A program made the position numbers and the translations under genes. A stretch of 64,000 nt of DNA from Dyella choica (GTDB lineage: Bacteria; Pseudomonadota; Gammaproteobacteria; Xanthomonadales; Rhodanobacteraceae), in contig NZ_RYYV01000022.1 of the NCBI RefSeq assembly GCF_003977665.1, forward strand, positions 1-64,000. Reading direction: 5' to 3'. Numbering within the stretch: the stretch's first letter is position 1; each line of letters begins with the position of its first letter. This document shows, piece after piece, positions 3,521 to 27,990 of the stretch. Under the pieces are notes generated by a model that was not told the DNA's origin, did no database searches, and worked only from the letters and a program-made list of their open reading frames with translations.

Positions 3521-4201
3521 TCACCCGCGCTGATACCGCACCTTGAACAACTCGCGGTCGTTACATAGACCCATCTTGCGGAAGGCTGAGTGCTTCTGCG
3601 CGCTGATCGTGGTGACAGACCGGGAAAACTTTTTGGCAATGGCTGTGATGGACATCCCATCGAGCAGGCAGCGCAGCACCTCATGTTCCCGTGCAGAAAG
3701 CTTGAAGGTGTCCAGCAACTCGTCGCCGAGGCCCTTGCCGGGCTCGTCACTCCGATGGATGGAGTTGATTGGGCTGGCAAGGTCGGTCAGGTGTCGGCTG
3801 AAATAGGTTCGGCCCGCGGCCACCGCCCGGATGGCCAGGTTCAGTTCGGAGTCGTGCTCGGCTTTGCCAATGAAACCGTGAGCGCCGGCCTTCTGCGCGA
3901 CAGCCATCGTGGCGGCGTTGCAGTGGGATGACACCACCAAGACGCGAACACGCGGATGATGCAGATGCAAGGAGCGCAGCAGCTTGGCGCCATCGGTCTC
4001 CGTTGCACCCAGTGCGTAGTCCGTAACGATTACGTCGGGTCGGTCTTCCTTTAGCGCATCGAAGAGTTGCCGAGGCGTGCAAAAGCTGCCTGCTATGTCC
4101 ACTCCGTACTCTTGCTTGAGCAGCAGCTCCATGCCATGGCGTACCAGCACGAGGTCTTCGAGCAACATCACGCGCAAGCGCGGCAACAGGGCATCGGACA
4201 T
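3521..4201 (-). CDS. RcsB-like LuxR-type response regulator, copy 1
   Basis: A 226-residue two-component response regulator. The receiver domain (about 8-125) keeps the acidic pair Glu15/Asp16, phosphoacceptor Asp61 (VIVTDYAL), Ser91 and Lys113. The C-terminal LuxR/NarL helix-turn-helix (about 165-225) contains SAREHEVLRCLLDGMSITAI and VTTISAQKHSAFRKMGL, closest to the RcsB subgroup. It lies 63 bases downstream of an Hpt-domain gene on the same strand, so it is probably the phosphorylation target of a phosphorelay. A second, roughly 80% identical copy lies at 9513-10193, and both copies have the same neighbour. Target genes are unknown. Confidence 0.88.
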   Translation of the reverse strand: MSDALLPRLRVMLLEDLVLVRHGMELLLKQEYGVDIAGSFCTPRQLFDALKEDRPDVIVTDYALGATETDGAKLLRSLHLHHPRVRVLVVSSHCNAATMAVAQKAGAHGFIGKAEHDSELNLAIRAVAAGRTYFSRHLTDLASPINSIHRSDEPGKGLGDELLDTFKLSAREHEVLRCLLDGMSITAIAKKFSRSVTTISAQKHSAFRKMGLCNDRELFKVRYQRG

Positions 4202-4264
4202 GTCCTACTTCCTTTTCAGATTAACCTGGCCTTCTTTTCCTCTTTCGCTGCCCGCATCGTCTGC

Positions 4265-4642
4265 TTAGTCAAAGTGGCGGGCGATAGCGACCTTCAACGC
4301 GGCGAGCGTGCGCTGGATGTCATCCGGCTGCAGCGATGCATAGCCTCTTGCCGCGAGTTCGAGCCGATCCGCCAACTCGGCCACCTGATCTGCATGCAGC
4401 ACCAACGCCGCGCCCTTCGCGCGATGCGAAAAGTGCAGCATGTTGGCGGTGTCCTGCCTTGCCAGGGCTCGCTCATACTCCTGGACGTCCGCGTCGATAC
4501 AGGCTCGGCGCCATCGGGGCGGCAGGGGTTCATCCGGCGCTTGATCAGCGGGAGGCGGTAGATCAAGCCACCGCGCGAGGGTGGCATACAACTGCTCGGG
4601 GCGCAGGGGGTTGTGCAGGACATCATCTAGGTGGCTAGTCAA
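4265..4642 (-). CDS. Hpt-domain protein, N-terminally truncated copy
   Basis: 125 codons matching the C-terminal part of the protein at 10259-11272. The Hpt domain is intact, with the phosphorylatable His in HRAKGAALVL. Homology to the longer copy breaks abruptly at SHLDDVLHNPL, at the edge of a dispersed repeat; an in-frame TAG lies just upstream and the only start available is TTG at 4642. The receiver-like half present in copy 2 is therefore missing. It may still act as a phosphotransfer protein for the downstream regulator if translated, but it looks like the relic of a rearrangement. Confidence 0.65.
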   Translation of the reverse strand: MTSHLDDVLHNPLRPEQLYATLARWLDLPPPADQAPDEPLPPRWRRACIDADVQEYERALARQDTANMLHFSHRAKGAALVLHADQVAELADRLELAARGYASLQPDDIQRTLAALKVAIARHFD

Positions 4643-4738
4643 CTAGACGCCAATGTCAGATCATGGTCCGAACTGCCTACGCGAGCCCATACTTCGCGGC
4701 CTTTTTTGGTGGATGTACCCAATCGCCTCTCCAATTGC
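4630..4738. repeat. Dispersed intergenic repeat copy
   Basis: Contains AACTAGACGCCAATGTCAGA, then TACTTCGCGG, GGTGGATGT and CAATCGCC, shared almost word for word with 11968-12135 and partly with 32486-32551 and 11014-11129. It begins exactly where homology between the two Hpt genes ends. Confidence 0.65.
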
Positions 4739-5129: not shown

Positions 5130-5717
5130 ATGCACAAGCAGGTGTTATGGACCATTGGATTTTTGGCTGTGCTCTGTCTCGTTACCGGGTTTGCTTCGGC
5201 CTCCGAGCAGGACGGCAATGCCGAAATATCGATCGACAACGGCATCAACCGGTTTGTCCTCGATGGAAAGGAGTTCATGGCCGTCAGGGCCATACGGGAG
5301 AACTTCAACGCACATGACTTTGATGTCGTTACCTTCTATGTGCGCGATTCGGATACATGGAAACTCGTTCCCCTATTCGAGGACTACTCAGACAAGCAAG
5401 GTGCTGAGCGTGACCTTCTGACGGTAAGTGGAGGTGCCGACTGTGTGCTACATGACTTCCGTCTGCTGCGTGCAACGGCGACGCATCCGCTAGAACTCGT
5501 TGCGGCTGACCGCGAGCTGGGTAAGAGCTACGCAGATAGCAACATTGTCCATTTCACATACTTTGAACTGGCGACGAACGACGCCAACATCCCGGGGCGG
5601 CCGTCGCTCTATTTCAAAATGCAGAAATCCACCGTTGCTAGAGCCCAATACTGCGACGTTAATGAAGCGCTGGACAAAGAACTTCATTTGGGGGCAGATA
5701 GCCATTTCAGTAGATGA
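5130..5717 (+). CDS. Exported protein, possibly CarG-like
   Basis: A 195-residue protein with a Sec signal peptide (MHKQVLWTIGFLAVLCLVTG then FASA), so periplasmic. The mature part carries INRFVLDGKEFMAVRAIREN, FDVVTFYVRD and a DLLTVSGGADCVLHDFRLL segment. These resemble, from memory, a family of periplasmic proteins related to the carbapenem self-resistance protein CarG; this assignment is tentative. Two cysteines (in GADC and QYC) could form a disulfide. The start at ATG 5130 has AAGGG upstream. Confidence 0.6.
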   Translation: MHKQVLWTIGFLAVLCLVTGFASASEQDGNAEISIDNGINRFVLDGKEFMAVRAIRENFNAHDFDVVTFYVRDSDTWKLVPLFEDYSDKQGAERDLLTVSGGADCVLHDFRLLRATATHPLELVAADRELGKSYADSNIVHFTYFELATNDANIPGRPSLYFKMQKSTVARAQYCDVNEALDKELHLGADSHFSR

Positions 5718-7960: not shown

Positions 7961-9385
7961 GTGCGTGCCATCCTCCGACGAGTAGTTCTTGTTCTCGCAA
8001 GTTTGGCTTTGGCCCTCGTTGTGATGGTGGGTGGACTAAACCTAGCGTTCCACTTCCTTTTCCATCGCGCTGCGCCAAGCGCCAGTTATCCGACGCCGTC
8101 ATCGCCTTTAGAGGCGCAGCAGCAAGATGTCGACTATCTCACCAAGGTGATAGCGCGCGATCGTGCTTTTTCGCCTACCGCACGTGAGACGGTAGAAGCA
8201 CGCCTCGTCGCTCTCCGATCCATGCCGAATGCGCTGCCGCCACCCGCTTTGCACGTAGCGCTGATGCAAGTGATGGCGCTGGCCGACAATGGTCACACTC
8301 GAATGGACGCAACGGCCGAGCAGCGCGCGCTGATCGTTCCGCTAAGGGTGACGCGCTTCGCGGAAGGTTTCTACGTCACTCGGGCGGCGACTGCCTATCG
8401 CGAGATGCTCGGCGGTCGCGTGGTGAGCATCGACGGGCATCCGATCGATCAGATCTTGCCTCAGCTGGATACGCTTCGCGGCGGCGTGGAGGGCTTCCGT
8501 CGGGAAAACGATGCGATCTACATCATCGTGCAAGACTTGCTGTACGGCTTGGGCATCGCCACCGAGCCCAAGGCTTCGACCTGGACTGTCGTACTGTCCG
8601 ACGGTCGAACGGTGACGCGTCGACTGGATGCCTATTCGATGCACAAGGGCGACAGACTACCTGCTGGCGGACGTTGGTTGTCGCCCGAACCGAGCAAGGG
8701 CGTCGAGCAAGACTGGAGCGCTTACCACCCGCAATCCACCGAGCTGCCGGAAACATGGCGGGATTTCGATCATCCTTTCCGGCTATTCCCTGCCGCGGAC
8801 AGCTGCGCCCAGGTTGTGCGACTGCAGAGTATCGGGGATGTTGGTAGTCATCGGATTTCACCGTTTCTCGCTGAGACGGAAGCAACGCTTCGCGCAAACC
8901 CACCCTGTGCCGTGATTCTCGACCTGCGTGGCGATGGCGGTGGCGATTACACCAATACCTGGCATTTCACGCATGCGCTGCCGAACTTGCTCGCGCCAGG
9001 TGGTCGCATCATCGTACTCACTAATTCGGCGACTTTTTCCGCCGCTATCACGACGGCCGCTTTCGTCAAAGACGCCGGTGGCGATCGGGTCGCGATCATT
9101 GGCGAACCGGTCGGCGACCGCTTGTCCTTTTTCTCCGAGGGTAACAAGGCCTGCTTGCCCAATCTAAAGGTATGCGCCTACCCGCAAACGGCGAAGCATG
9201 ACTACCAGCGCCCTTGCGACAACTGGCGGGTATGCTTTTGGCTCAACTGGTTTTATCCCGTCAGAGTGAGGAGTCTGCAGCCGGATATCGTCGTACCGCT
9301 CAGGTTTGAAGATTGGAACACGGGCCACGATGCAGCCTATGAGACTGCGCGCCAGCTAGCCATGCACCCGGCCAGCAAAACGTAA
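7961..9385 (+). CDS. S41-like peptidase (tail-specific protease family)
   Basis: 474 residues with an N-terminal membrane anchor or signal (LVLASLALALVVMVGGLNLA region). A PDZ-like segment follows (GGRVVSIDGHPIDQIL), then a C-terminal S41 catalytic core. The catalytic serine lies in TNSATFSAAITTAAFVKDAG and the downstream IIGEPVGDR loop matches family members. S41 enzymes cleave unfolded or C-terminally tagged proteins in the periplasm; this longer divergent member may act on another substrate. Four cysteines cluster near KACLPNLKVCAYP and CDNWRVCF, probably disulfides. The start is GTG 7961 after GGGGTGATCA. It stands alone. Confidence 0.75.
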   Translation: MRAILRRVVLVLASLALALVVMVGGLNLAFHFLFHRAAPSASYPTPSSPLEAQQQDVDYLTKVIARDRAFSPTARETVEARLVALRSMPNALPPPALHVALMQVMALADNGHTRMDATAEQRALIVPLRVTRFAEGFYVTRAATAYREMLGGRVVSIDGHPIDQILPQLDTLRGGVEGFRRENDAIYIIVQDLLYGLGIATEPKASTWTVVLSDGRTVTRRLDAYSMHKGDRLPAGGRWLSPEPSKGVEQDWSAYHPQSTELPETWRDFDHPFRLFPAADSCAQVVRLQSIGDVGSHRISPFLAETEATLRANPPCAVILDLRGDGGGDYTNTWHFTHALPNLLAPGGRIIVLTNSATFSAAITTAAFVKDAGGDRVAIIGEPVGDRLSFFSEGNKACLPNLKVCAYPQTAKHDYQRPCDNWRVCFWLNWFYPVRVRSLQPDIVVPLRFEDWNTGHDAAYETARQLAMHPASKT

Positions 9386-9512: not shown

Positions 9513-10193
9513 TCACCCGTGCTGATACAGCACCTTGAACAACTCGTGGCTGGTACATACACCTAGCTTGCGAAAGGCGGAATGCTTCTGCGCGCTGATC
9601 GTGGTGACCGATCGGGAAAACTTCTTGGCAATGGCTGTGATGGGCATGCCATCGAGTATGCAGCGCAGCACCTCATGTTCCCGAGTGGAGAGGTTGAAGG
9701 CGTTCAGCCACCCGTCGCCGCGATCCTTGCCGGGCTCGTTACTCTGATGGATGGGGTTGATAGAACTGGCTGGCTCGGGCAGATGCCTGCCGAAATAGGT
9801 CCGACCCGCGGCAACCGTTCGGATGGCTAGGTACAATTCGGTCTCGTGCTGCGTCTTGCCAATAAAGCCGTGAGCGCCGGCCCTCATCGCCAGGGCTATC
9901 GTAGGGGCGTTGCAGTGGGACGACACCACCAAGACCCGCACATGCGGATAATGCAGGTGCAAGGAACGGAGCAACTTGGCGCCATCGGTATCCGTTGCAC
10001 TCAGGGCGTAGTCCGTAACGATCACGTCAGGTCGGTCTTCCTTCAACGCCTCGAAGAGTTGCCGAGGCGTGCAAAAGCTGCCTGCTATGTCCAATCCGTA
10101 CTCATGCTTGAGCAGCAGCTCCATGCTATGGCGTACCAGCACGTGGTCCTCAAGCAACATCACGCGCAAGCGCGGCGACAAGGTATCGGACAT
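9513..10193 (-). CDS. RcsB-like LuxR-type response regulator, copy 2
   Basis: 226 residues, same architecture as the regulator at 3521-4201: receiver with Glu15/Asp16, Asp61 and the conserved Lys, then an RcsB-type helix-turn-helix (VTTISAQKHSAFRKLGV). The two copies differ mainly in the receiver-output linker and C-terminal tail, and homology extends about 30 bases past the stop codon, so a segment was duplicated. It lies 65 bases after the Hpt-domain gene and probably receives phosphate from it. Possible outcomes are heterodimers or split specificity; the target genes are not visible. Confidence 0.88.
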   Translation of the reverse strand: MSDTLSPRLRVMLLEDHVLVRHSMELLLKHEYGLDIAGSFCTPRQLFEALKEDRPDVIVTDYALSATDTDGAKLLRSLHLHYPHVRVLVVSSHCNAPTIALAMRAGAHGFIGKTQHETELYLAIRTVAAGRTYFGRHLPEPASSINPIHQSNEPGKDRGDGWLNAFNLSTREHEVLRCILDGMPITAIAKKFSRSVTTISAQKHSAFRKLGVCTSHELFKVLYQHG

Positions 10194-10258
10194 GTCCTAC
10201 TTCCTTTTCAGATTAGCCTGGCCTTCCTTTTTCCTCTCACGCTGCCCGCCTCTTTGGT

Positions 10259-11272
10259 CTAGTCAAAGTGGCGGGCGATAGCGACCTTCAATGCGGCGAG
10301 CGTGCGTTGAGTTTCATCTAGCTGCAGCGGTGCATAGCCTCTTGCCGCGAGTTCCAGTCGATCCGCCAACTCGGCCGCCTGATCCGCATGCAGCACCAAC
10401 GCCGCGCCCTTCGCGCGATGCGCAAAGTGCACCATGTTGGCGATGTCCTGCCTTGCCAGGGCTCGCTCGTACTCCTGGACGTCCCCGTCGATACAGGCTC
10501 GACGCCAACGGGGCGGCAGGGGTTCATCCGGCGCTTGACCGGCGAGTGGCGACAGGTCGAGCCAACGCGCGAGGGTGGCATACAGCTCCCCTGGGCGCAG
10601 GGGAGTGTGCAGGACACTATCCAGGCGGCTATCCAAAGCGCGACGCCAGCTCTCCCCACCTTGCCCAACGATGGCAACGAGGGGAATATGGGCGTGTCTT
10701 GCAAGGTTAGCGACCGTAAAACGCAGCACGGCTTGATAGACGGCTGCGTCCGGCCCCTCCAGGGCCATCAGGATCACGTCGGGCACCTTCAAATCCATGG
10801 CATTCAAGGCTGCCAGGCTGTCAGGCACGGGGAGTGAGTCCAGGCGAAGCGCTTTGAGTTCGGCGGTCAAAACGCTACGCGTTTCAGGATCATTCGCCAC
10901 CACAAGGATGCGCGCTGGCGCCTGGGGCCGTGCGTGGTACGACGCGGAAGGCTCTCTCACATCCAATGGGTTAAACCACTCCGTAATGCGAGAAGCATAA
11001 GAGATGGGCGCAGTCGGAGGCATCCAAGAAGCGGTCTCTTGCCAACTAGCCGAAAACGTCAAATCGCCGTCCGACGCTCGTAAGCAAGCCCTTACTTTGC
11101 GGGTTCTTTGGTGAATGTCCTCAATCGCTCTGGCCGAAGTGATGTAGGTGAGTTTAGATAGGGGTGCTGCGCGGCTTTGAAACCAAAACGGGCTGTCGTG
11201 CCGGTCCTCTCGACTGTCCGCACCTTTGGTTACCCTGGCCGAGCGGGAATCTATATGCGTGATTTGTTTCAT
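10259..11272 (-). CDS. Degenerate-receiver plus Hpt phosphotransfer protein
   Basis: Up to 337 residues. The C-terminal Hpt domain (last 85 residues) carries the active His in HRAKGAALVLHADQ. In front is a receiver-like domain (PARILVVANDPETRSVLTAE through ILMALEGPD to LHTPLRPGEL) in which the phosphoacceptor Asp is replaced by Ala and the conserved Lys by Thr, so it cannot be phosphorylated normally. This receiver-Hpt order is the C-terminal end of BvgS/RcsC-like hybrid kinases; the sensor and kinase parts are missing. The first 83 codons run through a dispersed repeat and look non-native; an ATG at 11023 inside the repeat is an alternative start. It feeds the regulator at 9513-10193. Confidence 0.7.
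   Translation of the reverse strand: MKQITHIDSRSARVTKGADSREDRHDSPFWFQSRAAPLSKLTYITSARAIEDIHQRTRKVRACLRASDGDLTFSASWQETASWMPPTAPISYASRITEWFNPLDVREPSASYHARPQAPARILVVANDPETRSVLTAELKALRLDSLPVPDSLAALNAMDLKVPDVILMALEGPDAAVYQAVLRFTVANLARHAHIPLVAIVGQGGESWRRALDSRLDSVLHTPLRPGELYATLARWLDLSPLAGQAPDEPLPPRWRRACIDGDVQEYERALARQDIANMVHFAHRAKGAALVLHADQAAELADRLELAARGYAPLQLDETQRTLAALKVAIARHFD
11014..11129. repeat. Dispersed intergenic repeat copy
   Basis: Contains CATCCAAGAAGCGGTCTCTT, GCCAACTAG, GTAAGCAAGCCCTTACTTTG and GGTGAATGTCCTCAATCGC, parallel to 11968-12135. It overlaps the N-terminal codons of the Hpt-domain gene, suggesting that the repeat marks the breakpoint that removed the upstream kinase part. Confidence 0.65.
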
Positions 11273-12457: not shown

Positions 12458-12497
12458 GTAGTACGATTTTCTTACCAAGATGGTAGCGAGGTACTAC
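12458..12497. promoter_or_regulatory. Nested inverted repeats abutting the operon start
   Basis: GTAGTAC (12458-12464) pairs with GTACTAC (12491-12497), enclosing TACCA (12473-12477) and TGGTA (12481-12485). The outer arm ends directly against the ATG at 12498 and covers the GAGG ribosome binding site. It could be the operator for the XRE protein encoded by the second gene, or an mRNA hairpin that controls translation of the operon. Confidence 0.5.
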
Positions 12498-12773
12498 ATG
12501 AGCGAGCATAAGGCCGAGCTCGAACGGATCCTCAGCAACTTCTGGGATGGCAATGAAATCCCCACCAATGATGCTCCCACGAGCACAGACCAGCTTGGCG
12601 CTGCGTTAGATTCGATCACGGCCGTTGCGGTCCTTCTTGAAGTCGACACATTATTTAAACGGAAGATTCCAGTGGAGGCGGTCATCCAGCGAGGCGGTTA
12701 CAAGGATAAGGAAGAATTCGTTACTAAGTTGCGCGACCAAATCCTTAAGGTCGTTGAGGAAAGCAAAGCATGA
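12498..12773 (+). CDS. Acyl-carrier-protein-like small protein
   Basis: 91 residues starting MSEHKAELERIL. The stretch LDSITAVAVLLEVDTLFKRK then IPVEAVIQRGGY matches the acyl-carrier pattern: Asp-Ser at the phosphopantetheine attachment position, a hydrophobic helix, an acidic residue, then Phe...IP. It may therefore carry a pantetheine arm or only keep the four-helix fold. It is the first gene of a tightly packed operon; its TGA overlaps the XRE start by ATGA. An in-frame GTG at 12480 lacks a ribosome binding site; GAGG precedes the ATG used. No synthase partner is nearby, so the usual fatty-acid or polyketide role is unlikely. Confidence 0.65.
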   Translation: MSEHKAELERILSNFWDGNEIPTNDAPTSTDQLGAALDSITAVAVLLEVDTLFKRKIPVEAVIQRGGYKDKEEFVTKLRDQILKVVEESKA

Positions 12774-13114
12774 GCAACGCAAAAAAAACGCCACGCCAGG
12801 AGCTGGCTGAGCGTTTGCGTGGTGCACGCGAATATTTGGGCCTATCTCAAGACGAGGTCGCAGTAGCTATGCAGCTTTCCAGGCCATCGGTGACACTTAT
12901 GGAGTCCGGCGGCAGGAAGATCGAAGCCACAGAACTCGACAGGCTGGCGAAGCTCTATCGAGTGAGCGTCGAGTACTTGTTGTCGGGACGCGAACCAGAG
13001 GATACGGAGCCGAAGCAATTTGCATTCCTGGCGCGAGCGGTGAAAGGGTTGTCCGAAAGCGATGTTCAAGAAGTCGCGCGATTCGCCGAATTCTTGAAGA
13101 AGTCCCCCAAATAA
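12770..13114 (+). CDS. XRE-family transcriptional regulator
   Basis: 114 residues. An N-terminal Cro/C1 helix-turn-helix (about 9-70) reads RLRGAREYLGLSQDEVAVAM, SRPSVTLMESG and LAKLYRVSVEYLLSG. A short helical tail follows (VKGLSESDVQEVARFAEFL), as in regulators paired with ImmA/IrrE metallopeptidases. It overlaps the upstream gene by ATGA and is followed 18 bases later by the ImmA/IrrE gene. In such pairs the repressor is normally the substrate or partner of the peptidase, so it probably represses this operon until stress or infection. Confidence 0.88.
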   Translation: MSNAKKTPRQELAERLRGAREYLGLSQDEVAVAMQLSRPSVTLMESGGRKIEATELDRLAKLYRVSVEYLLSGREPEDTEPKQFAFLARAVKGLSESDVQEVARFAEFLKKSPK

Positions 13115-13132
13115 CCGGCAGCGAGTAAGGGA

Positions 13133-14149
13133 ATGCTCGAATTCAAGACGAAAGCCGCGCAGATCGCTGTAGAAGTCCTACGGGATACAGGTGCTGAGCG
13201 CCGCATCCACGAAGATGGCTACACGCGCGTCGATCCACTTTGGATCGCTGCGATGCAAGGCGTCATGGTCATGCGTCGTCCCTTTGAGAAGCTATTAGGT
13301 GCGTTCGTACGCGAATCGACGCCGGGCATCATCATCAACTCCGATCGTCCCACGGGTTTGATTCACCTTACCTGCGCGCATGAACTAGGCCACTATTTCC
13401 TCGGGCACGAGTCGACGGCCGACGAGCACATCCAATACGACAAGGACGCCGCGCTCCAGGAACGCGAAGCCGACTGGTTCGCCTACTGCCTGCTTACATC
13501 CCGTGGCGTCTTGGCCCAGACGATGCGCCGAAAGGGCTGGTCCATCGCCGCGCTGCGGGATCCGCTGAATCTTTATCAGCTCTCCCTCCGTATCGGTGTG
13601 AGCTACGCGGCCATGGCCTGGAGCCTGGCGCGTTTAAAGTTGTGGGCTTCCAGTGATGCCGATCGAATGACGCGCACGGAGCCCGCTGAGATCAAGCGGT
13701 CGATCTTGAGCCGTGGCGACTTTGAGGCACGCAATGACGTCTGGTTGCTTGATGAACGTGATCGCGAGCTGATTCTAGAGCCATCTGTCCGCGATCAAAT
13801 CGTAGTTCGCCTTCCAAATCACGCACCGTCGGGCTACCTCTGGTCGTTGGATGAGGCACACAGCGAAGGTTTCCGGATACAGCCGCTAGACACATCCGCC
13901 CGCCCGGCCGCAGCAGAGCCGCCGAGTACTACCAATGCCGAGGCTGATCACCTTCTGATAGGCCATACAGAACGGGGTAAGTTCGCAGGGCAGATCTTGC
14001 CCTTAATCTTCACGGAAAAGCGTCCTTGGGAGTCCAAGTCGGAAGACGAAGCCCGCTTTCGGACTTCAGTTGGTTTTGAAGAGGCTGGAGAGGGACTCAG
14101 CGCTGGTTCGCGCCGCCGTCTACTGCAGGAAGGTGCTCCTGCAGCATGA
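13133..14149 (+). CDS. ImmA/IrrE metallopeptidase fused to a chagasin-like inhibitor domain
   Basis: 338 residues, cytosolic. The N-terminal half is an ImmA/IrrE zinc metallopeptidase: HELGHYFLGH at 83-92 (HExxH) and the downstream acidic ligand in EREADWFA at 110-117. The C-terminal part (about 215-320) resembles chagasin (MEROPS I42), an inhibitor of papain-family proteases. It has IVVRLPNHAPSGYLW, matching the L2 loop NPTTGFAW, then LLIGHTERGKF at the place of the L4 glycine loop, and EKRPWES, matching the L6 RPW loop. The next gene encodes a papain-like protease, its expected target. The stop overlaps that gene by ATGA. This fusion is unusual; the chagasin call is by motif order only. Confidence 0.8.
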   Translation: MLEFKTKAAQIAVEVLRDTGAERRIHEDGYTRVDPLWIAAMQGVMVMRRPFEKLLGAFVRESTPGIIINSDRPTGLIHLTCAHELGHYFLGHESTADEHIQYDKDAALQEREADWFAYCLLTSRGVLAQTMRRKGWSIAALRDPLNLYQLSLRIGVSYAAMAWSLARLKLWASSDADRMTRTEPAEIKRSILSRGDFEARNDVWLLDERDRELILEPSVRDQIVVRLPNHAPSGYLWSLDEAHSEGFRIQPLDTSARPAAAEPPSTTNAEADHLLIGHTERGKFAGQILPLIFTEKRPWESKSEDEARFRTSVGFEEAGEGLSAGSRRRLLQEGAPAA

Positions 14150-14766
14150 TCACAATTGAACTGACGCTTCCGCAATCGAGATTGAGCGCGCGAGACCAAG
14201 GCAGGCGTCTAACGTGCTTAGCGTTCGCTCTTTGCGAAGTGGAGTATGGCTATTCGCCGGGCGGCTTTTTAAGCCCGGAATACCTATACCAACGCGCAGC
14301 AGCTCGCTCCCGATCGTGGGTCCCAAACTGCGGGCTGCAACTTTCCGCCGCGCTCCAGGCGGCAAATCAGATTGCGCTTGAAGTGGACTGCCCATATCAG
14401 CAGACGGAACCCCCTTTTCCCTTGCCACCACTGCCCTCGGGTGTCCCTCTCTTTGGGGGCTCAGCACACGCATTTTCCATGGATACGGACGAGATCATTC
14501 GGCGGTTGCGTGAGGGCCTGGTTGTGGGCCTTGGGCTCATGCTCACCCACGCCTTTTATGCGCCTGATGGCGACAGGATTCGCGACGGCGCTCCCATTGT
14601 TCCGCAGTCAGGTCATGCAGTGGCCGTGGTGGGTCTAGGTTGGGAAGAAGAAGAGGCGTTCTTTCTGATCCGCAATAGCTGGGGCCAAGCATGGGGCCAG
14701 AATGGCTCCGCATGGCTATCCGCCGACTACATTCAAACGCATGCGCAATGCGCATTTGGGGTCTAG
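14146..14766 (+). CDS. Papain-like (C1 family) cysteine protease
   Basis: 206 residues without signal peptide or propeptide, so an intracellular mature-size enzyme. The papain motifs are in order: oxyanion Gln18 and nucleophile Cys24 in RDQGRRLTCLAFAL, His157 in SGHAVAVVGLG, and Asn177 in IRNSWGQAWGQNG. It is coupled by ATGA to the gene encoding the ImmA/IrrE-chagasin fusion, so protease and candidate inhibitor are made together. That arrangement resembles toxin and antitoxin: the inhibitor keeps the protease silent until the metallopeptidase is triggered. Substrates are unknown; cellular proteins would fit an abortive-infection role (inference). Confidence 0.85.
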   Translation: MITIELTLPQSRLSARDQGRRLTCLAFALCEVEYGYSPGGFLSPEYLYQRAAARSRSWVPNCGLQLSAALQAANQIALEVDCPYQQTEPPFPLPPLPSGVPLFGGSAHAFSMDTDEIIRRLREGLVVGLGLMLTHAFYAPDGDRIRDGAPIVPQSGHAVAVVGLGWEEEEAFFLIRNSWGQAWGQNGSAWLSADYIQTHAQCAFGV

Positions 14767-14769
14767 AAC

Positions 14770-15576
14770 ATGGCTGAGCTTATAGTCGGTGACCGTATCA
14801 TCCCCGTTTGGCTCGCAGCGGTAAGGAAGCTAAACACCAGTCCCGGCCGAACGGCACTCAATGTCGTCCTGGAGATCGCGTCTCCCACGCTTATGGCGGA
14901 CGACCTGGAGATATGGCGAGCGGTCGATGCCAAGCTGAGGACGCACACCACTGACATGTCACTCGACACTGTTGCAGGCACGCTATTCCCCAATCACCTT
15001 TACAAGCGGTTCGGCCGACCCGATTTCTACGATCGATATTTGACGGCTATCAAGCGCGGAAAAAAGAAAAACAGCTGGGGCACTTACGCGTGGCGCATGA
15101 TGGAGCGCCCGGACCGCAAAAGCGGGAAGAACTTCAATCCGCTTGACCGTATCGTGCAGAAGTTTATCGACGCAAAGAATGGGCAGGGATATCAAGCTGT
15201 CTATGAGCTCGGCGTTCTCGAACCGGATGATTTGCTCGAAAATGGTGGCGATGGTCCATGGTGTGAACTTCCCGTGGCGAACCCTGCAGCAAAGCCGCGG
15301 CGCAATATTCCCTGTCTTAGCCACCTTAGTTTCAAGCTAAATAAAGGCCGAGTCACATTGACTGCCGTATACCGGGCACACTACTACGCGCAGCGTGCCT
15401 TGGGGAACTTGATTGGTCTCAGCCAGCTGCAGAAGTTCGTAGCCATCGAGTCGGGCTTGGGAATCGGTCCGCTGACCTGCGTTAGCACGCTTGCTGTGCT
15501 CGATACCGACACTTGGGGTGGTGTCGATGCAACAACAACCTTTCTTGGGGGCCTTCCCTCGACACGCGATCAGTAG
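14770..15576 (+). CDS. Thymidylate-synthase-like protein
   Basis: 268 residues. The C-terminal part shows the thymidylate synthase pattern: IPCLSHLSFKLNKGRVTLTA in place of the PPCH active-site loop and following strand, then YRAHYYAQRALGNLIGLSQL in place of the YQRSxDxxLGxPFNI segment. A ...GIGPLTCVSTLAVLD stretch stands where GD.H.Y normally lies. The catalytic Cys appears kept (PCLSH), but the sequence is too divergent to claim dTMP synthesis. The N-terminal half (SPGRTALNVVLEIASPTLMA) is specific to this subfamily. It starts three bases after the protease stop and its 3' end overlaps the convergent gene by 7 bases. Confidence 0.6.
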   Translation: MAELIVGDRIIPVWLAAVRKLNTSPGRTALNVVLEIASPTLMADDLEIWRAVDAKLRTHTTDMSLDTVAGTLFPNHLYKRFGRPDFYDRYLTAIKRGKKKNSWGTYAWRMMERPDRKSGKNFNPLDRIVQKFIDAKNGQGYQAVYELGVLEPDDLLENGGDGPWCELPVANPAAKPRRNIPCLSHLSFKLNKGRVTLTAVYRAHYYAQRALGNLIGLSQLQKFVAIESGLGIGPLTCVSTLAVLDTDTWGGVDATTTFLGGLPSTRDQ

Positions 15577-16244
15577 GCCAAGAGAGCCTGCCGCGGTTTC
15601 GCTACCCGAGGTGCGGGGAGAGAGTACGCGTGGCGCATGCCATCTCGGAAGTCCATTACACCGCCGTAGCTCGGATGCCTTACCGTCGTTACCTTGGCAT
15701 CGAACCGGCTCGCGTAGCGCGCAGCATCCTGGCCGATGGCAACGATGCGTTTGATACCTAACCAAGAGATCAACGCGGCGTTGAGCTCTTCGACTTCGCG
15801 AAGTTCAGCATTGCTGAATCGGCGATTGGTAAATGGATTGCCAGGTTCGTGTGGATGTAGTGGGAAGACGTTCCACAGTAGCGGAGGAAGATCGAGGCTT
15901 CTGAGGATTGTCCAGATCTCAGCTGCCGTCCGTTCTGCAACCGCAGGACCCTTCGTCGCCTGTCGCGACTCGCAACCCGGATAAAGCTTGCTCATCTCGG
16001 TCAGATGGAGCTCATCGGTCAGGGCGAGTCCGGTTCTGCGCCCCCCCCGGTAGCCCAGGTCACGGCCCATCCAGATGGTATCGACGCCGATCGACTTCGC
16101 GGCAGCGAGATAGGAACGCAGATTTCTCCGCCTGAACGCGGCGGCATCGCTCAGGTCATGCACCGGGCACACGTCAGCGTACGGGTTGAACACGTTGTGC
16201 TGACGTAAAGCAGCTAGGGCGCGAACGAAGGAGGCAGGATTCAT
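15570..16244 (-). CDS. Uracil-DNA-glycosylase-superfamily protein
   Basis: 224 residues. The UDG-fold landmarks are an N-terminal NPYADVCPVHDLSDAAAFRR, motif I-like WMGRDLGYRGGRRTGLALTD (60-77 region), LLWNVFPLHPHEPG (124-137 region), IKRIVAIGQDA and motif II-like VRHPSYGG. Related sequences are usually annotated as uracil-DNA glycosylase; the enzyme would remove uracil or another modified base from DNA, but the substrate is unproven. Its ATG overlaps the stop of the MazG-like gene (ATGA), so it is the last gene of a three-gene coupled operon. Its 3' end overlaps the convergent thymidylate-synthase-like gene. Confidence 0.75.
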   Translation of the reverse strand: MNPASFVRALAALRQHNVFNPYADVCPVHDLSDAAAFRRRNLRSYLAAAKSIGVDTIWMGRDLGYRGGRRTGLALTDELHLTEMSKLYPGCESRQATKGPAVAERTAAEIWTILRSLDLPPLLWNVFPLHPHEPGNPFTNRRFSNAELREVEELNAALISWLGIKRIVAIGQDAARYASRFDAKVTTVRHPSYGGVMDFRDGMRHAYSLPAPRVAKPRQALLAY

Positions 16245-17452
16245 GTGGGGTGAGGGAGCTCTTCGTATGTAAGCGTATGATCATTCATGTTGACGGTGAC
16301 GCGGCCACCCCGATTGGACTTAAGCATCCGAAATACCTCAAAGCCTCTCAGGATGGCCATTTCCCACTGCCATAGTGGGCAGGCCTCCACCTCATACCCT
16401 TCCACCATACTTTTGATCTGCTTAAGAAGACCGTAGTCTAGCTTGCCCTGCGCGACATTTTCGTAGTGATCGCGGCGCTTTGCATGATTGAAGATCCAGG
16501 TGGCGATGCCCTCCTCGATGATCGTCGCGCGAGCCCCGTCCTCGTTCTCATCGATCTTCGGCTGAGACTTTCTTTTCAGTTTCAACAGGCCACGGAGCAC
16601 AGGAGACCAGCCTAAATAGGCGACGTAAGCGAGATGAAAGACGTCATGAAAACGATAGTCATCTGGCTCATTGCTGTTGTCTGTTAGACGGTCGCCAATA
16701 TTGACGTCTTGCAGACGTTGCACAACATAGGTGCGGCCACCTTCAATGCGCTCGACGAAATCGATACTAAACACCCTGGGAAACTGTTCATATTCGGGAT
16801 AGCGCTCGCTAGGATCAAAAAACGGCAGAAACGCTTGCTCGCTTGGCCAACGATTGGCCGTCTTGGCCAAGTTCTCATAAGCCACGTCTTCGACTTTGAG
16901 ATCGAACGTGTGGCAGGCCAGTGCCCACTCAGCCAAGATTTTCCCCAGATGCTGACAGGCCGTGGGATGGCTCATTGTTCTCAGCTGCTCGCGAGCAGTC
17001 GAGGCTAAGACTCCGGCTGCATTGGCAAGAACGCCCAGCTGAAATGGGCGAACGATGTCCCATTCACCGCGATGGGAATCCATCACTCCGTCGATATGGC
17101 GAAACGTAATAGGAAGCTTAGGCGTTGTATCTTTGTCCTGAGCGCGCTTGCGCAACTCCCGAATGCACTCCACGCCAAGATCATCTGGACTCACTTGAAG
17201 TGCTTTGGCGACACCGAATAGGTACCAGAGCGCATCTCCCAGTTCTTCCGACGCTAGCTGGCTTTGGGACTCGCTGAGCTGGTCCCGAACGCTGCGCTTG
17301 ACCGAAGATAATAGCCCTCCGACTTCACCAAAGAACCCGAACCTCAGGTAATCGAGTTCTTCCGGGTCTTTATCCAGCTGGTTTGTGGCGCTGGATTTGA
17401 GCGCGTACTCGGGTAAAGAGAGAGCAGCACCCCTTCGCTTGGCTGGCGTCAT
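16241..17452 (-). CDS. MazG-like nucleoside triphosphate pyrophosphohydrolase, two-domain
   Basis: 403 residues. The N-terminal MazG-type domain has GFFGEVGGLLSSVKRSVRD (40-58) and SEELGDALWYLFGVAKAL (68-85), the paired acidic motifs that bind Mg and hydrolyse (d)NTPs to NMP and pyrophosphate. A second, larger helical domain (about 220-350) carries DDYRFHDVFHLAYVAYLGWS and IIEEGIATWIFNHAKRRD, again with metal-ligand-like His and Glu/Asp, seen in longer MazG-like proteins. The ATG at 17450-17452 is preceded by CAGGAGGAAG and overlaps the DUF4031 stop. It probably cleans or depletes a nucleotide pool together with its operon partners. Confidence 0.8.
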   Translation of the reverse strand: MTPAKRRGAALSLPEYALKSSATNQLDKDPEELDYLRFGFFGEVGGLLSSVKRSVRDQLSESQSQLASEELGDALWYLFGVAKALQVSPDDLGVECIRELRKRAQDKDTTPKLPITFRHIDGVMDSHRGEWDIVRPFQLGVLANAAGVLASTAREQLRTMSHPTACQHLGKILAEWALACHTFDLKVEDVAYENLAKTANRWPSEQAFLPFFDPSERYPEYEQFPRVFSIDFVERIEGGRTYVVQRLQDVNIGDRLTDNSNEPDDYRFHDVFHLAYVAYLGWSPVLRGLLKLKRKSQPKIDENEDGARATIIEEGIATWIFNHAKRRDHYENVAQGKLDYGLLKQIKSMVEGYEVEACPLWQWEMAILRGFEVFRMLKSNRGGRVTVNMNDHTLTYEELPHPT

Positions 17453-17760
17453 GGAACAACTTCCTCCTGGAGGTTGCGTTCGGCCCATACAGCACGCTGG
17501 GCAAGGAGCTCGCGCCGCAGAACCCTACTTCGATCAACAATGGTAAAGCGATCAGCGTCCACGGCGCCGAGACGTAGCGCTTTTTCGCGAACAGTCATCG
17601 TGACGTCGTAGTGCGGATAGGCGCCATGGTCCTGGAACCACTGGCGCTTGAGCCCGAGGCGCCGAGCGAAATCGTGCAGCTCACTCAGCGAATCAGCGAC
17701 GAGATGACACCACAGGCGGTTGCGCCATCGGATCCCCTCGGAATCAATGTAGACTGCCAT
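17449..17760 (-). CDS. DUF4031 domain protein
   Basis: 103 residues beginning MAVYIDSEGIRWRNRLWCHL, followed by ADSLSELHDFARRLGLKRQW, FQDHGAYPHYDVT and a basic segment ending in RREL. This is the usual DUF4031 layout: one compact domain with conserved Trp, His, Asp and Tyr residues and an unknown reaction. The frame is open upstream to 17799, but the family start is the ATG at 17758-17760. It is the first gene of the coupled operon with the MazG-like and UDG-like genes and is transcribed divergently from the XRE gene; the operator at 17782-17800 lies just upstream. Confidence 0.8.
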   Translation of the reverse strand: MAVYIDSEGIRWRNRLWCHLVADSLSELHDFARRLGLKRQWFQDHGAYPHYDVTMTVREKALRLGAVDADRFTIVDRSRVLRRELLAQRAVWAERNLQEEVVP

Positions 17761-17781
17761 GGGTCGAAACCATCGCGAGAG

Positions 17782-17800
17782 TGTGCAAATATTATGCACA
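17782..17800. promoter_or_regulatory. Palindromic operator TGTGCA-N7-TGCACA
   Basis: Arms TGTGCA (17782-17787) and TGCACA (17795-17800) with the AT-rich spacer AATATTA. It lies between the divergent DUF4031 and XRE genes and ends one base before the XRE ATG. An identical pair of arms with the same spacing lies inside the XRE gene at 17972-17990, which strongly suggests a repressor binding site for that XRE protein. Confidence 0.65.
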
Positions 17801-24231: not shown

Positions 24232-27200
24232 ATGAACCGCATCTACCGCATTGTCTTCAATCGCACGCTCGGCGTGCCGCAAGTGGTATCCGAACTGGCC
24301 AGCGCGCCCGGTGGTGTCGTCGTCGGTGCTGCGGATCAGTTGCCGAAGCTGGGCACGAAGTCGCGCCTGCTCGCGGTTGCGGTCGGTCTGGCGCTCGCCA
24401 CGGTGACGGTGCCGACATGGGCGCAGACGTGCACGCAGACGTTGGGCGTGTTGACGGCCTCTTGCACAGGTTCGGCGGGTTCCAATGGCGGCCGTGCCCG
24501 CTATGGCTCGGGCGGCAGCCCGGCGGCAGCCGGAAGCGGCACGGGCGCGAGCTCAACGACTCCGGGCGCGGGTGGCGCTTTCGGCGGCAGCGGCGGGCTC
24601 GGCAAGAGTGGCATTCATACCCCATTTGCCAATGGTGGCGGTGGCGGCACCTATGGCGGTGGTGGCAGCGGTGGTGGCGGTGCCGGCGGTAACGGCGGCA
24701 ATCCCGGCATCGTGACCTCGGGCACCCTGTCCACTACGGGCGGTGTTGTGATCAACGGTGGCGCAGGCACCAATGGTGTCCCGTACGGCCCCGCCGGTGG
24801 CCCCGTATGGAGTGTCGGTGGTGGCGGCGGCGGCGGTGGTGCCGGCGTGAACACAGCTACCTCCAACGCGTCCCTGACGAATGCGGGAACGATTGCGGGC
24901 GGCAACGGTGGCAACGGTGCCTACAGCGTCTATACCGGTGGCGGTGGCGGTGGCGGCGTAGGCCTCGGCATCGTCGGCGCCGGCAATCAGGTGTCCAACA
25001 GCGGCAGCCTGGTGGGCGGCCGTGGTGGCGATGCCGGTGCTGTTGCCTTTGGCGGAATCAGAAATACAGGCGCCGGCGGCGGCGGCGGCGCTGGCCTGGG
25101 CATCACGGGTAACGGAAATTCGGTAACCAACACCGCGAGCATCGCCGGCGGCCAGGGTGGCACTGGCTCGTCGGTCGGGATCGGCGGCGTTGGCGTTGGC
25201 ATCTCGGGCAACAACAACGTGCTGGCTACCAGTGGCCACATCAGCGGTGGCCTGAATGGCGCAGGCACCAATGTCAACGATGCCGTCCTCATCACGGGCA
25301 ACAACAACACGCTGGAGCTTGACCAGGGCTACAGCTTCACCGGCAACGTGGTATCCACGGCCGGCAACAGGAACTTGATCGCACTGGGCGGCAGCACCGG
25401 TGGAAGCTTCAACATCGCCGGCTTCGGTGCGTTCACCGGTTTCGATGGCTACGCGAAGAACGGCACCGGCACCTGGACGCTGACGGGCAGCTCGACGGCG
25501 GTGATGCCGTGGGCGCTCAACGCCGGCACGCTGTCGGTGTCCTCCGATGCCAACCTTGGTGATCCCAGCGGCAGCCTCACCTTCACCGGCGGCACGCTGC
25601 AGTTTGGCAGCAGCTTCAACCTTGCCAGCACGCGGGCGATCACGCTTGCTGTCGCCGGCACCATCGATACCAACGGCTACGCCACCACGATCTCGCAGGC
25701 GATCACCGGCAACCTTAACCTTGGCCTGACCGTGATGGACAGTGCCGGTGGTGGCGCGCTGACGTTGACGGGTGCTAACACGTACGGCGGCGACACGGCG
25801 ATCAACGCCGGGGCCAAGCTGATCCTTTCCGGCGCGGGCAGCATCGCCAGCTCCAATACCGTGACCGTCAACGGCGCGCTGGATGTGTCGGCCAACGGCG
25901 CATCCATCAAGAGCCTGATGGGCAGCGGCAGCGTGGCATTAGGTGCGCAGGCGCTCACGCTGACCAACGCCGGCAGCGCCTTTGCCGGCGTGATCAGCGA
26001 TACCGGCGGCAGCACGACGGGCACCGGCGGCTCGCTGGTCCTCAACGGTGGCGCGGAAGCGCTGCAGGGCGCCAACACCTATACCGGCAGCACCACCATC
26101 AACGGCGGCACGTTGCAGTTGTTGTCTTCTGGCAGCATCGCTTCTTCGTCCGGCGTGAACGTGGCGAGCGGCGCCACTTTGGACCTCACCCAGACCAACG
26201 TCGCGTCCATCCACTCACTGAGTGGCGCTGGCAACCTGGCGCTCGGCTCGAACACGCAGCTCTGGCTCAGCGGGCCTGACAGCGTGTTCGACGGTGTCAT
26301 CAGCGGTGGTGCAAACAACATCGTCGCCCTGTTCAACGGCAGCGAAACCCTCAATGGCGTCAACACCTACGGCGGCCAGACCAAGGTGAACAACACCGGC
26401 ACGCTGTTGGTGGGTGATGCCTCGCACACCGGCGCCAGCCTTGCCAGCACCGTGGACGTGATATGGGGCGGCATACTGGGCGGTCATGGCAGCGTGGGCG
26501 GCGTAACGCTGGAAAGCGGCGGCATTCTGACCCTGGGCGGTGCCGGCATCGCGGGCGATACCGCGCTTGGCATGTTCACCGTCAACGGCAACTTCATCGC
26601 GAACGGACCCAGCACGACCTCGAGCGGATCCAGCACGCTCAATCTCGCCTTTGGCGCACCGGGCGCCAGTTTCCAGAGCGCGGGCAGCAGCGACAGCATC
26701 CTTGTGAACGGCAACCTCACGTTGAACGGCGCCACGCTCAACGTGATCAACGCCGGCAGCATGGGGCCGGGCTTGTACAACGTGATCACTTACACGGGCA
26801 CGCTCGCGCAGAGCGGCGCCGGCCTTAGCCTGGGCAACACGCCGACAGGGCAAAACGTGGCCCTGCAACTGCTCACCGCGCAGAAGCAGATCAACCTGAT
26901 CGACAGCACCGGCTATGCGCTCAACTACTGGAATGCCAATGGACAGGCCAGCGCCACGCAAATGGGTGGCGACAGCGGCACGTGGAGCACCGCATCCTCG
27001 ACCAACGGCGCCAGCACCAGCAACTGGACGAACGCCACTGCCAGCGTACCCAACGGCGTGTGGGTACAGGACGGCTTCGCCGTCTTCGGCGGCACGGCGG
27101 GCACGGTCACCGCAAGCGGCACCGTGAACGCCACCGGCCTGCAGTTTGCCGTGGATGGCTACACGGTGACCGGCGGCACTCTGGTGCTGGATGCCACCAC

Positions 27201-27945
27201 CAGTGGCGGCACCACCACGGCACCGATCATCCGCGTGGGCGATGGCAGCAGCGCCAGCGCGGGCATGACCGCCACCATCAGCAGTCAGCTCAGCGGCAGC
27301 GACGGCTTCACCAAGACCGATGCTGGCACGTTGGTGCTGGCCAGCTCCAATTCGATACAAGGTGGCGTCACCGTGCAGGGTGGCACCTTGCAGCTTGGCA
27401 GCGCCTCGCACGGGGCCGTACTGCGAAACACGCCGATCAGCATGTCTGCCGGCACTAACCTGGTGATCGACAACGGCTATGTGACGAGCAGCGCCGGTAG
27501 CGCCTCATCCAGCAGCACGAGCACCGGTGGCGCCGGTGGGGCGGGCGTGACCGGCACCGGTTTCACCGTGACCAACAATACCTTCACCAACGGCAACGTT
27601 AGCAGTCGTAACAGGATCGGGGGAGGCAATGGCGGCTATAGCCAATACACCAATGGCGGTGCGGGCGGCTCAGGTATCAGCGGCACCGGTTTCACCGCGA
27701 ACAACGCCGGTTTCATTTCCGGTGGCCGCGGCGGCATCACGCACAGTCTCACCGGCGTGGGCGGTGCCGGCGGTGCCGGCATTGATGGCAGCGCCTTCAA
27801 GCTGACTAATGCCAGTACTGGCAAAATTGCTGGCCTTATTGGCGGCATTATCACTGGCGGTTATGGCGGATGGAACAATGGTGAGGGTACCGTCGCTGGC
27901 GCTATCGGATCCACGGGCGGCGCAGGTGTGATGGTGGAAGCCTGA
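24232..27945 (+). CDS. Giant autotransporter adhesin, N-terminal half (ends at in-frame TGA)
   Basis: 1237 codons. It begins with an extended signal peptide region (MNRIYRIVFNRTLGVPQVVS) and a Sec signal ending at TWAQ, as in large type V autotransporters. The passenger holds glycine-rich repeats (24600-25250 and 27480-27900) and autotransporter-associated beta-strand repeats such as LTLTGANTYGGDTAINAGAK and GANTYTGSTTINGGTLQLLS, which build a long beta-helix. The reading frame stops at TGA 27943-27945 but the same frame continues as the second half of the protein, so this is half of a broken gene or a gene with readthrough. Alone it has no translocation barrel and would be lost in the periplasm. 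Confidence 0.8.
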   Translation: MNRIYRIVFNRTLGVPQVVSELASAPGGVVVGAADQLPKLGTKSRLLAVAVGLALATVTVPTWAQTCTQTLGVLTASCTGSAGSNGGRARYGSGGSPAAAGSGTGASSTTPGAGGAFGGSGGLGKSGIHTPFANGGGGGTYGGGGSGGGGAGGNGGNPGIVTSGTLSTTGGVVINGGAGTNGVPYGPAGGPVWSVGGGGGGGGAGVNTATSNASLTNAGTIAGGNGGNGAYSVYTGGGGGGGVGLGIVGAGNQVSNSGSLVGGRGGDAGAVAFGGIRNTGAGGGGGAGLGITGNGNSVTNTASIAGGQGGTGSSVGIGGVGVGISGNNNVLATSGHISGGLNGAGTNVNDAVLITGNNNTLELDQGYSFTGNVVSTAGNRNLIALGGSTGGSFNIAGFGAFTGFDGYAKNGTGTWTLTGSSTAVMPWALNAGTLSVSSDANLGDPSGSLTFTGGTLQFGSSFNLASTRAITLAVAGTIDTNGYATTISQAITGNLNLGLTVMDSAGGGALTLTGANTYGGDTAINAGAKLILSGAGSIASSNTVTVNGALDVSANGASIKSLMGSGSVALGAQALTLTNAGSAFAGVISDTGGSTTGTGGSLVLNGGAEALQGANTYTGSTTINGGTLQLLSSGSIASSSGVNVASGATLDLTQTNVASIHSLSGAGNLALGSNTQLWLSGPDSVFDGVISGGANNIVALFNGSETLNGVNTYGGQTKVNNTGTLLVGDASHTGASLASTVDVIWGGILGGHGSVGGVTLESGGILTLGGAGIAGDTALGMFTVNGNFIANGPSTTSSGSSTLNLAFGAPGASFQSAGSSDSILVNGNLTLNGATLNVINAGSMGPGLYNVITYTGTLAQSGAGLSLGNTPTGQNVALQLLTAQKQINLIDSTGYALNYWNANGQASATQMGGDSGTWSTASSTNGASTSNWTNATASVPNGVWVQDGFAVFGGTAGTVTASGTVNATGLQFAVDGYTVTGGTLVLDATTSGGTTTAPIIRVGDGSSASAGMTATISSQLSGSDGFTKTDAGTLVLASSNSIQGGVTVQGGTLQLGSASHGAVLRNTPISMSAGTNLVIDNGYVTSSAGSASSSSTSTGGAGGAGVTGTGFTVTNNTFTNGNVSSRNRIGGGNGGYSQYTNGGAGGSGISGTGFTANNAGFISGGRGGITHSLTGVGGAGGAGIDGSAFKLTNASTGKIAGLIGGIITGGYGGWNNGEGTVAGAIGSTGGAGVMVEA

Positions 27946-27990
27946 GCCACCCAGTCCACGATTACCAACGCGGGCATTATCGACGGCGGC

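Follow-up and report, generated by a model that had tools for sequence, protein, structure and literature searches.

Pairs of an XRE-family repressor and an ImmA/IrrE-type peptidase, such as CapH and CapP, regulate immune operons, and the published picture is of a repressor with one protease (PMC13373217). CapP, like PprI, is activated by single-stranded DNA and cleaves its repressor partner (PMC13373217, PMC10904395). Chagasin inhibits papain-like proteases nonspecifically (PMC7863939), making contact with them through its loops L2 and L6 (PMC2607524), and intracellular peptidase inhibitors have been called rare (PMC3901451). Here we analyse a stretch of 64,000 nucleotides from Dyella choica (assembly GCF_003977665.1, contig NZ_RYYV01000022.1, positions 1-64,000, forward strand), which we call the window. 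It encodes an ImmA/IrrE metallopeptidase with a C-terminal chagasin-type (MEROPS I42) domain, coupled to a papain-family (C1) cysteine protease. On balance we think it probable that this locus is an XRE-ImmA switch carrying its own inhibitor of a second, papain-like protease. That the I42 domain inhibits the neighbouring protease is likely, judged from sequences and structure models. The genes and domains at the centre of this reading are:

12770..13114, plus strand: XRE-family repressor of CapH-like size (Pfam HTH_31 2.5e-11; PADLOC capH 1e-11)
13133..13696, plus strand: ImmA/IrrE (M78) metallopeptidase domain, residues 1-188 of a 338 amino acid product
13697..13738, plus strand: linker between metallopeptidase and inhibitor domain, residues 189-202, with a block of lower model confidence at 191-200 (predicted local distance difference test, pLDDT, 79)
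13739..14080, plus strand: predicted chagasin-fold (I42) domain, residues about 203-316, with L2 at about 229-237 and L6 at 297-299
14146..14766, plus strand: papain-family (C1) cysteine protease of 206 amino acids, of mature-domain size and without prodomain

Searches of plasmid sequences gave 25 records for the ImmA protein and 14 for the C1 protein. Profiles were built from 19 plasmid loci, and 136 loci and the window, as well as later additions, were scored with them. We counted loci with an M78 score of at least 100, minus 11 short loci repeating the window or larger loci, which gives 63 loci including the window, or 58 clusters at 95% identity. Among the 72 loci dropped for an M78 score below 100, none has a hit to our own profiles for I42, for C1 or for the thymidylate-synthase-like (TS-like) protein encoded after the protease.

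All three (TS, C1 and I42) are present in 40 of the 63 loci, 22 have TS and neither I42 nor C1, and one (L044) has a cut-off I42 domain only; by clusters this is 35 with both, 22 with neither and one remnant. L044 was considered as a case of I42 without C1 and rejected, as it is a truncated copy: its frame stops shortly after L2, and neither C1 nor TS is hit downstream. I42 and C1 were never found apart in any intact copy examined. An earlier reading of this DNA from its letters alone (the sequence-only reading) had proposed an inhibitor domain acting on the adjacent protease, which hangs partly on the two co-occurring more than rarely, and they do. Since the XRE-ImmA cassette is found without both in 22 of the 63 loci, the pair is an optional part of the switch. 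Degenerate I42 domains in the protease-less loci were considered too and are unsupported (Pfam I42 in 0/22, hhalign 0.2%).

A plasmid search with the TS-like protein, its query taken from an I42-containing locus, returned 22 records, 16 with both domains (three of them judged from tblastn rows only), five with neither and one TS fragment. Among 398 genomes of the phylum the TS search gave four strong hits, the own genome included, two with both and two with neither; the TS alignment lists 28 matches, and those beyond the four cassettes are weak and have no M78 hit within about 3.4 kb. The C1 alignment of the same genomes has 20 matches, of which two are cassettes (own genome and G549) and the rest are other C1 proteins. 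One of these non-cassette matches, L142, adjoins an I42-like frame. The pair is held by Pseudomonadota, Myxococcota, Planctomycetota and Balneolota contigs and by a Haloarcula plasmid. The phage collection contains no match to the TS-like protein. On viral contigs the ImmA alignment gave 41 loci, the only cassettes being L096 and L097, both without the pair, and a single TS protein query gave none; C1 profile scores of viral-contig proteins reach at most 106 bits vs 142-331 for intact cassette members.

The fusion product of 338 amino acids is encoded at 13133-14149. The sequence-only reading had called it an ImmA/IrrE peptidase from the HELGH motif at residues 83-87, and residues 42-162 do match M78 in Pfam (2.3e-14). 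HEXXH with a downstream glutamate is present in 58/58 clusters, in agreement with the M78 profile and fold. The AlphaFold2 (AF2) model of the product has a pLDDT of 86.9 and a predicted template modelling score (pTM) of 0.87, and its 13 fold matches in the PDB at E<=0.001 are nine chagasin-family chains and four IrrE/PprI chains, so that both proposed halves are recovered; a sequence-only PDB search with the ImmA protein gave no match. The I42 family is matched at E<=0.01 by 23 of 24 aligned family rows, the window included, with a best value of 9.7e-16. The family profile of the C-terminal part aligned to 16 canonical bacterial I42 proteins with 97.8% probability in hhalign (E 8e-13), and three controls reached 0.2%, 0.4% and 0.04%. 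By these profiles the I42 match is weak for the window protein alone and not chance for the family. Homologues of the gene are already annotated as 'protease inhibitor I42 family protein' in two records.

Loop motifs were defined as L2 (NPTTG-like), L4 (GxGG) and L6 (RPW/F) after PMC2607524. The strands of the AF2 model place L2 in the NHAPSGYLW region, at about 229-237, and make L6 the RPW at 297-299. The sequence-only reading had named these two segments correctly, but its third, GHTERGKF (277-284) as L4, was rejected, as the strand order of the model puts this hairpin turn at the opposite end; the L4 position falls in a long low-confidence stretch (251-269). The glycine and tryptophan of L2 are kept in 36/36 I42-containing clusters. 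Conservation of L2 and L6 together exceeds that of blocks drawn at random from the domain (p 0.0027, 24 rows), and W299 ranks among the three most conserved residues.

The 206 amino acid product matches C1 in Pfam (7.3e-9) and has the Cys24, His157 and Asn177 pointed out before. Its AF2 model (pLDDT 94.9, pTM 0.92) matches Der p 1 (5e-11) and xylellain (3e-10) in the PDB. Of 35 clusters, 34 retain the set Q18-C24-H157-N177; the exception is the interrupted copy L027. No signal peptide was seen by eye. An inhibitory prodomain is usual in papain family C1. Here the open frame ahead of the catalytic cysteine has a median of 38 residues and exceeds 100 in 1/35 clusters (L040), so there is no room for one. 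PADLOC had no match for the window protease. In L027, from Sphingomonas sp. C8-2 (CP034356.1), neither the ImmA gene nor the C1 gene is annotated, and the C1 frame is broken into two pieces; the near-identical L021, on plasmid pTA15-1 of Sphingobium sp. TA15, has an intact copy.

The distance from the ImmA stop to the nearest protease start is between -4 and +8 bases in 34/34 measurable clusters, with an ATGA overlap in 16. Against L191, the copy carried by a genome of the same family, seven genes have dN/dS values of 0.04-0.13. The earlier picture of a C-terminal inhibitor domain coupled to an active-looking papain-type partner thus holds in fold, catalytic set and linkage, and sequence and models could hardly make a chagasin-type domain paired with the neighbouring protease more certain.

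A tree built on the M78 part groups 35 of the 36 I42-containing rows together (SH-aLRT 89); L052 is placed on a separate, long and weakly supported branch. The I42 distribution needs no more than two changes and is compatible with one origin, and a single gain, or a single loss, of the pair as a unit is probable. Genomes from the family and the class of the window supplied 31 canonical I42 loci; two of them encode I42 and then C1 in a single protein, and no M78 hit was found within the approximately 3 kb read around these 31 loci. The two proteins (L300 1057-2709 and L288 994-3243) come from two bacterial genomes of different families and have, by eye, a signal-peptide-like N-terminus. Their I42-C1 order is the order seen here, which suggests that an inhibitor-protease unit like these may have been taken up by the cassette and divided; fusions of this type may explain the origin of the pair.

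The remaining features of the locus are:

12459..12477, no strand assigned: candidate XRE operator of the form nnGTnnGA-nnn-TCnnACnn, here TAGTACGA TTT TCTTACCA
12498..12773, plus strand: gene 1, acyl-carrier-protein-like with a DS motif; an alternative upstream ATG at 12480 is possible
14770..15576, plus strand: TS-like protein (NCBIfam TIGR03283 1.7e-9, 37.5 bits, under the cut-off)
15570..16244, minus strand: uracil-DNA glycosylase-like (UDG-like) protein, convergent to the operon; homologue records are named uracil-DNA glycosylase
16241..17488, minus strand: MazG-like pyrophosphohydrolase with MazG_C (Pfam MazG_C 1.7e-80)
17449..17799, minus strand: DUF4031 protein, an optional part (Pfam DUF4031 1.2e-25), which adjoins MazG in the Burkholderia locus L009 too

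The sequence-only reading had an operon of XRE regulator, ImmA/IrrE peptidase and papain-like enzyme joined by ATGA overlaps. These genes are real, but the co-directional unit is longer, with five genes, as the carrier-protein-like gene 1 and the TS-like gene at 14770-15576 belong to it. ATGA overlaps are found at the gene 1/XRE junction and the ImmA/protease junction (14146), but not between XRE (stop 13114) and ImmA (start 13133); the TS-like gene starts four bases past the protease stop. In the 19 plasmid loci read, the common order is gene 1, XRE, ImmA, optionally C1, and TS.

The XRE-ImmA pair stands near the operon head, as in CapH/CapP regulators. The pattern nnGTnnGA-nnn-TCnnACnn occurs near the gene 1 start in 27 of 50 loci (22 with and 5 without I42) vs 0.12 expected from shuffles. 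This recurrence of a 19-base near-palindrome in both classes suggests a conserved candidate XRE operator. The window copy, an imperfect palindrome with 6/8 pairs, is alone not above shuffles, and we regard a further match, at 8594 of the window, as fortuitous.

The serine of the DS motif is invariant in all 19 aligned gene 1 proteins. Pfam PP-binding is hit by 8 of 19 (best 9.1e-8), the window's own protein not among them, and within the I42-containing subset by 4 of 13 (best 0.015). Alignment to homologues from loci without I42 gave 74% in hhalign over 28 columns, and NCBI names four of those homologues acyl carrier protein. On these sequence comparisons the carrier-protein assignment is weak for the I42-containing loci. 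Genes resembling AcpS or a phosphopantetheinyl transferase (PPTase) lie near 10/35 clusters with C1 and 5/22 without (15/57), some of them so annotated, and their position beside the cassettes supports a carrier-protein role of gene 1. PPTase/holo-ACP-synthase-like genes were detected by profile in L010, L013, L017, L020, L025, L039, L041, L049, L052, L053, L059, L060, L067, L189 and L190.

Cys182 of the TS-like protein is invariant in 20/20 sequences; neither this protein nor the UDG-like protein of the window has a Pfam match. The UDG-like profile is found in 21/35 clusters with C1 and 0/22 without. Genes for an HMUDK_hel kinase (Pfam 5e-114 for one member) are present in 28 of 57 clusters; in the window no profile hit at E<=0.001 was found for it, and the UDG-like gene is there instead. 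The two occur together in 0/57 TS clusters within the available stretches, some of which end at contig ends, as if UDG and kinase were alternative steps of one nucleotide pathway. MazG is detected in 27/35 clusters with C1 and 22/22 without (49/57), and the loci lacking C1 retain both TS and MazG and, in most cases, gene 1 and the kinase as well.

Of the plasmid records, 16/25 from the ImmA search and 13/22 from the TS search were typed conjugative. Known defence genes near cassettes include SduA (9e-155) and DUF499 (2e-257) in L017 and a PD-T4-6-like kinase in L009. Among ten chosen cassette neighbours, for which no control set was run, PADLOC gave no match for six and a weak one for another. 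According to the DefensePredictor paper (PMC13092281), validated defence domains include thymidylate synthase and 5-hydroxymethyldeoxyuridine kinase, and MazG, MazG-C and UDG occur in predicted units. In view of this domain overlap and the known defence genes near cassettes, the gene set may plausibly act in defence or in element conflict. On four rhizobial plasmids caspase-family genes lie a few kb from the cassette (L011 4176-6985, L019 3194-5994, L020 2639-3832, L013 1320-2555); L011 and L019 have a caspase-family gene and a hypothetical gene directly upstream of gene 1, and PADLOC had no match for the caspase-family genes of L011 and L013.

Elsewhere in the window, 9513-11272 and 3521-4652 hold a gene pair of a LuxR-type response regulator and an Hpt-domain protein with many diverged copies in the genome (28 matches including pieces; any match in 4/16 genus genomes, own included). 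In a genus comparison of the flanks, made to look for an island, one flank is a multi-copy gene family. The product of 5130-5717 is CarG-like by Pfam (5.7e-9), and 24232-30879 contains two large genes whose features, ESPR/PATR repeats followed by an autotransporter beta-domain, are those of autotransporters.

In the mechanism we propose, XRE would repress the operon at the recurrent operator. ImmA would be activated by a stress signal, which in PprI and CapP is single-stranded DNA and probably is here too, and would then cleave XRE and induce the operon. The ImmA-I42 protein and the protease would be made in about equal amounts and held as an inactive complex in which the loops of the inhibitor plug the papain cleft; the protease would therefore be safe though the operon is on. 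Only a second event, ImmA self-cleavage or rearrangement or loss of the inhibitor, would free the protease, and the linker (residues 189-202) is a possible cleavage site. The freed protease would cut a specific target, most likely inside the switch or its gene set and not cell protein at large; the output of the switch would also include the TS-like protein with the MazG genes adjoining, a nucleotide-chemistry gene set. Release of the protease by the metallopeptidase is a real possibility, somewhat short of probable. The fuller picture of a two-key relay, in which a damage- or invasion-sensing ImmA switch both induces and muzzles the protease until ImmA is activated or cut, is put forward tentatively, and the suicide function suggested by the sequence-only reading is doubtful.

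Several observations weigh against a switch that carries its own protease inhibitor. The I42 match of the window protein itself (residues 218-311) is sub-threshold, with 0.0071 and 17.0 bits vs a cut-off of 27.2 bits. Its L4 lacks a GxGG-like motif, where many homologues have GGP or similar, and RPW is exact in only 26 of 36 I42-containing clusters, two of the ten misses being the broken copies L027 and L044. Mirror-tree partial correlations are slight for I42-C1 (0.28; I42-TS 0.06, I42 with its own metallopeptidase 0.35), and in the plain mirror-tree C1-XRE (0.82) is on a level with C1-I42 (0.80). Among the C1 relatives on viral contigs, 0 of the 80 kept from 364 have an I42 or M78 hit, and C1 proteins in general thus need no I42. 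The class proportions are biased because most queries were I42-containing proteins. As the tree permits one joint gain, the co-occurrence may reflect one event kept together and not many independent ones. Finally, repressor cleavage triggered by single-stranded DNA is assumed here by analogy only.

The I42 domain might instead be an adaptor that brings the papain-like enzyme to ImmA and XRE as a second processing protease, with no need for a blocked cleft. Coupling and co-occurrence fit this equally well, and the inexact RPW copies, two of the ten being broken, and the degenerate L4 of the window speak for it; yet the contact loops L2 and L6, with the invariant glycine and tryptophan and the highly ranked W299, are the more conserved part of the domain, and a protease lacking a prodomain would be otherwise unrestrained, so we regard docking as unlikely. 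Plasmid addiction or abortive infection, with the papain-like enzyme as toxin, ImmA-I42 as antitoxin and the rest as cargo, would suit a coupled pair with many copies on plasmids, over half of the records conjugative, and with SduA and DUF499 as neighbours in L017. Against this, the 'antitoxin' metallopeptidase persists with TS, and usually with XRE and gene 1, in 22 loci that lack the toxin, and PADLOC is blank for the protease and for 6/10 of the chosen neighbours; we judge this account improbable.

Highly improbable, in our view, is a papain-fold enzyme that acts on a carrier protein (the thioester or a peptide of gene 1) in a nucleotide-modifying pathway, with I42 only timing the enzyme. 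The invariant DS serine and the nearby AcpS/PPTase-like genes speak for it, but the enzyme has a complete papain-type Q-C-H-N set and papain-family proteases as top PDB matches, enzyme-less loci keep TS, MazG and mostly gene 1 and the kinase, and gene 1 itself is weakly assigned in I42-containing loci. That I42 is a decoy which senses or blocks a foreign cysteine protease of a phage or rival element, the relatedness of the neighbouring enzyme being coincidental, is barely credible: papain-family proteins do occur on viral contigs and chagasin is nonspecific (PMC7863939), but a foreign target leaves the strict linkage of I42 and enzyme at -4 to +8 bases unexplained. Inhibition of the neighbouring protease stays the reading that we prefer.

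An ImmA protein that also bears the inhibitor of a probable second protease would be a natural, testable gated cascade in a prokaryotic cell, in which gene order names the likely target of an intracellular inhibitor. If the relay is true, the control of cysteine proteases by inhibitor gating would have a counterpart inside prokaryotic cells, built onto a carrier-protein/TS-like nucleotide-chemistry cassette common to bacteria and archaea. The cassette, with kinase or UDG as alternatives, is also a lead to unknown nucleotide chemistry.

No description of the layout (chagasin with ImmA, or TS, MazG and acyl carrier protein in an anti-phage context) was found in the accessible text of open-licence papers, in line with the earlier statement that no such system was known. 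The main text of the DefensePredictor paper does not contain ImmA, metallopeptidase, acyl carrier or papain; some of its predicted units may overlap in part with the layout. Shared with its candidates are the TS-like, MazG_C and UDG-like proteins and, in related loci, the HMUDK_hel kinase. The XRE-ImmA pair is like CapH and CapP, which control CBASS and other immune operons, and PADLOC named no CBASS cyclase among the eight window proteins scanned; unlike that pair, the locus adds the C-terminal I42 domain, the coupled papain-family protease, the carrier-like gene 1 and the TS-like gene. In the PprI/IrrE-DdrO system of Deinococcus the C-terminal domain of PprI is GAF-like (PMC10904395), whereas here it has a predicted chagasin fold. 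The single-chain proteins of L300 and L288 share the order of I42 ahead of C1, but as one polypeptide and with no M78 hit alongside in the 3 kb read. The studied chagasin/ICP (inhibitor of cysteine proteases) proteins are stand-alone inhibitors with the same fold and the same L2 and L6 motifs, whereas here the domain is fused to a gene-switch metallopeptidase and its presumed target is the next gene. The occurrence of the pairing in distant microbes points to an undescribed two-protease control device.

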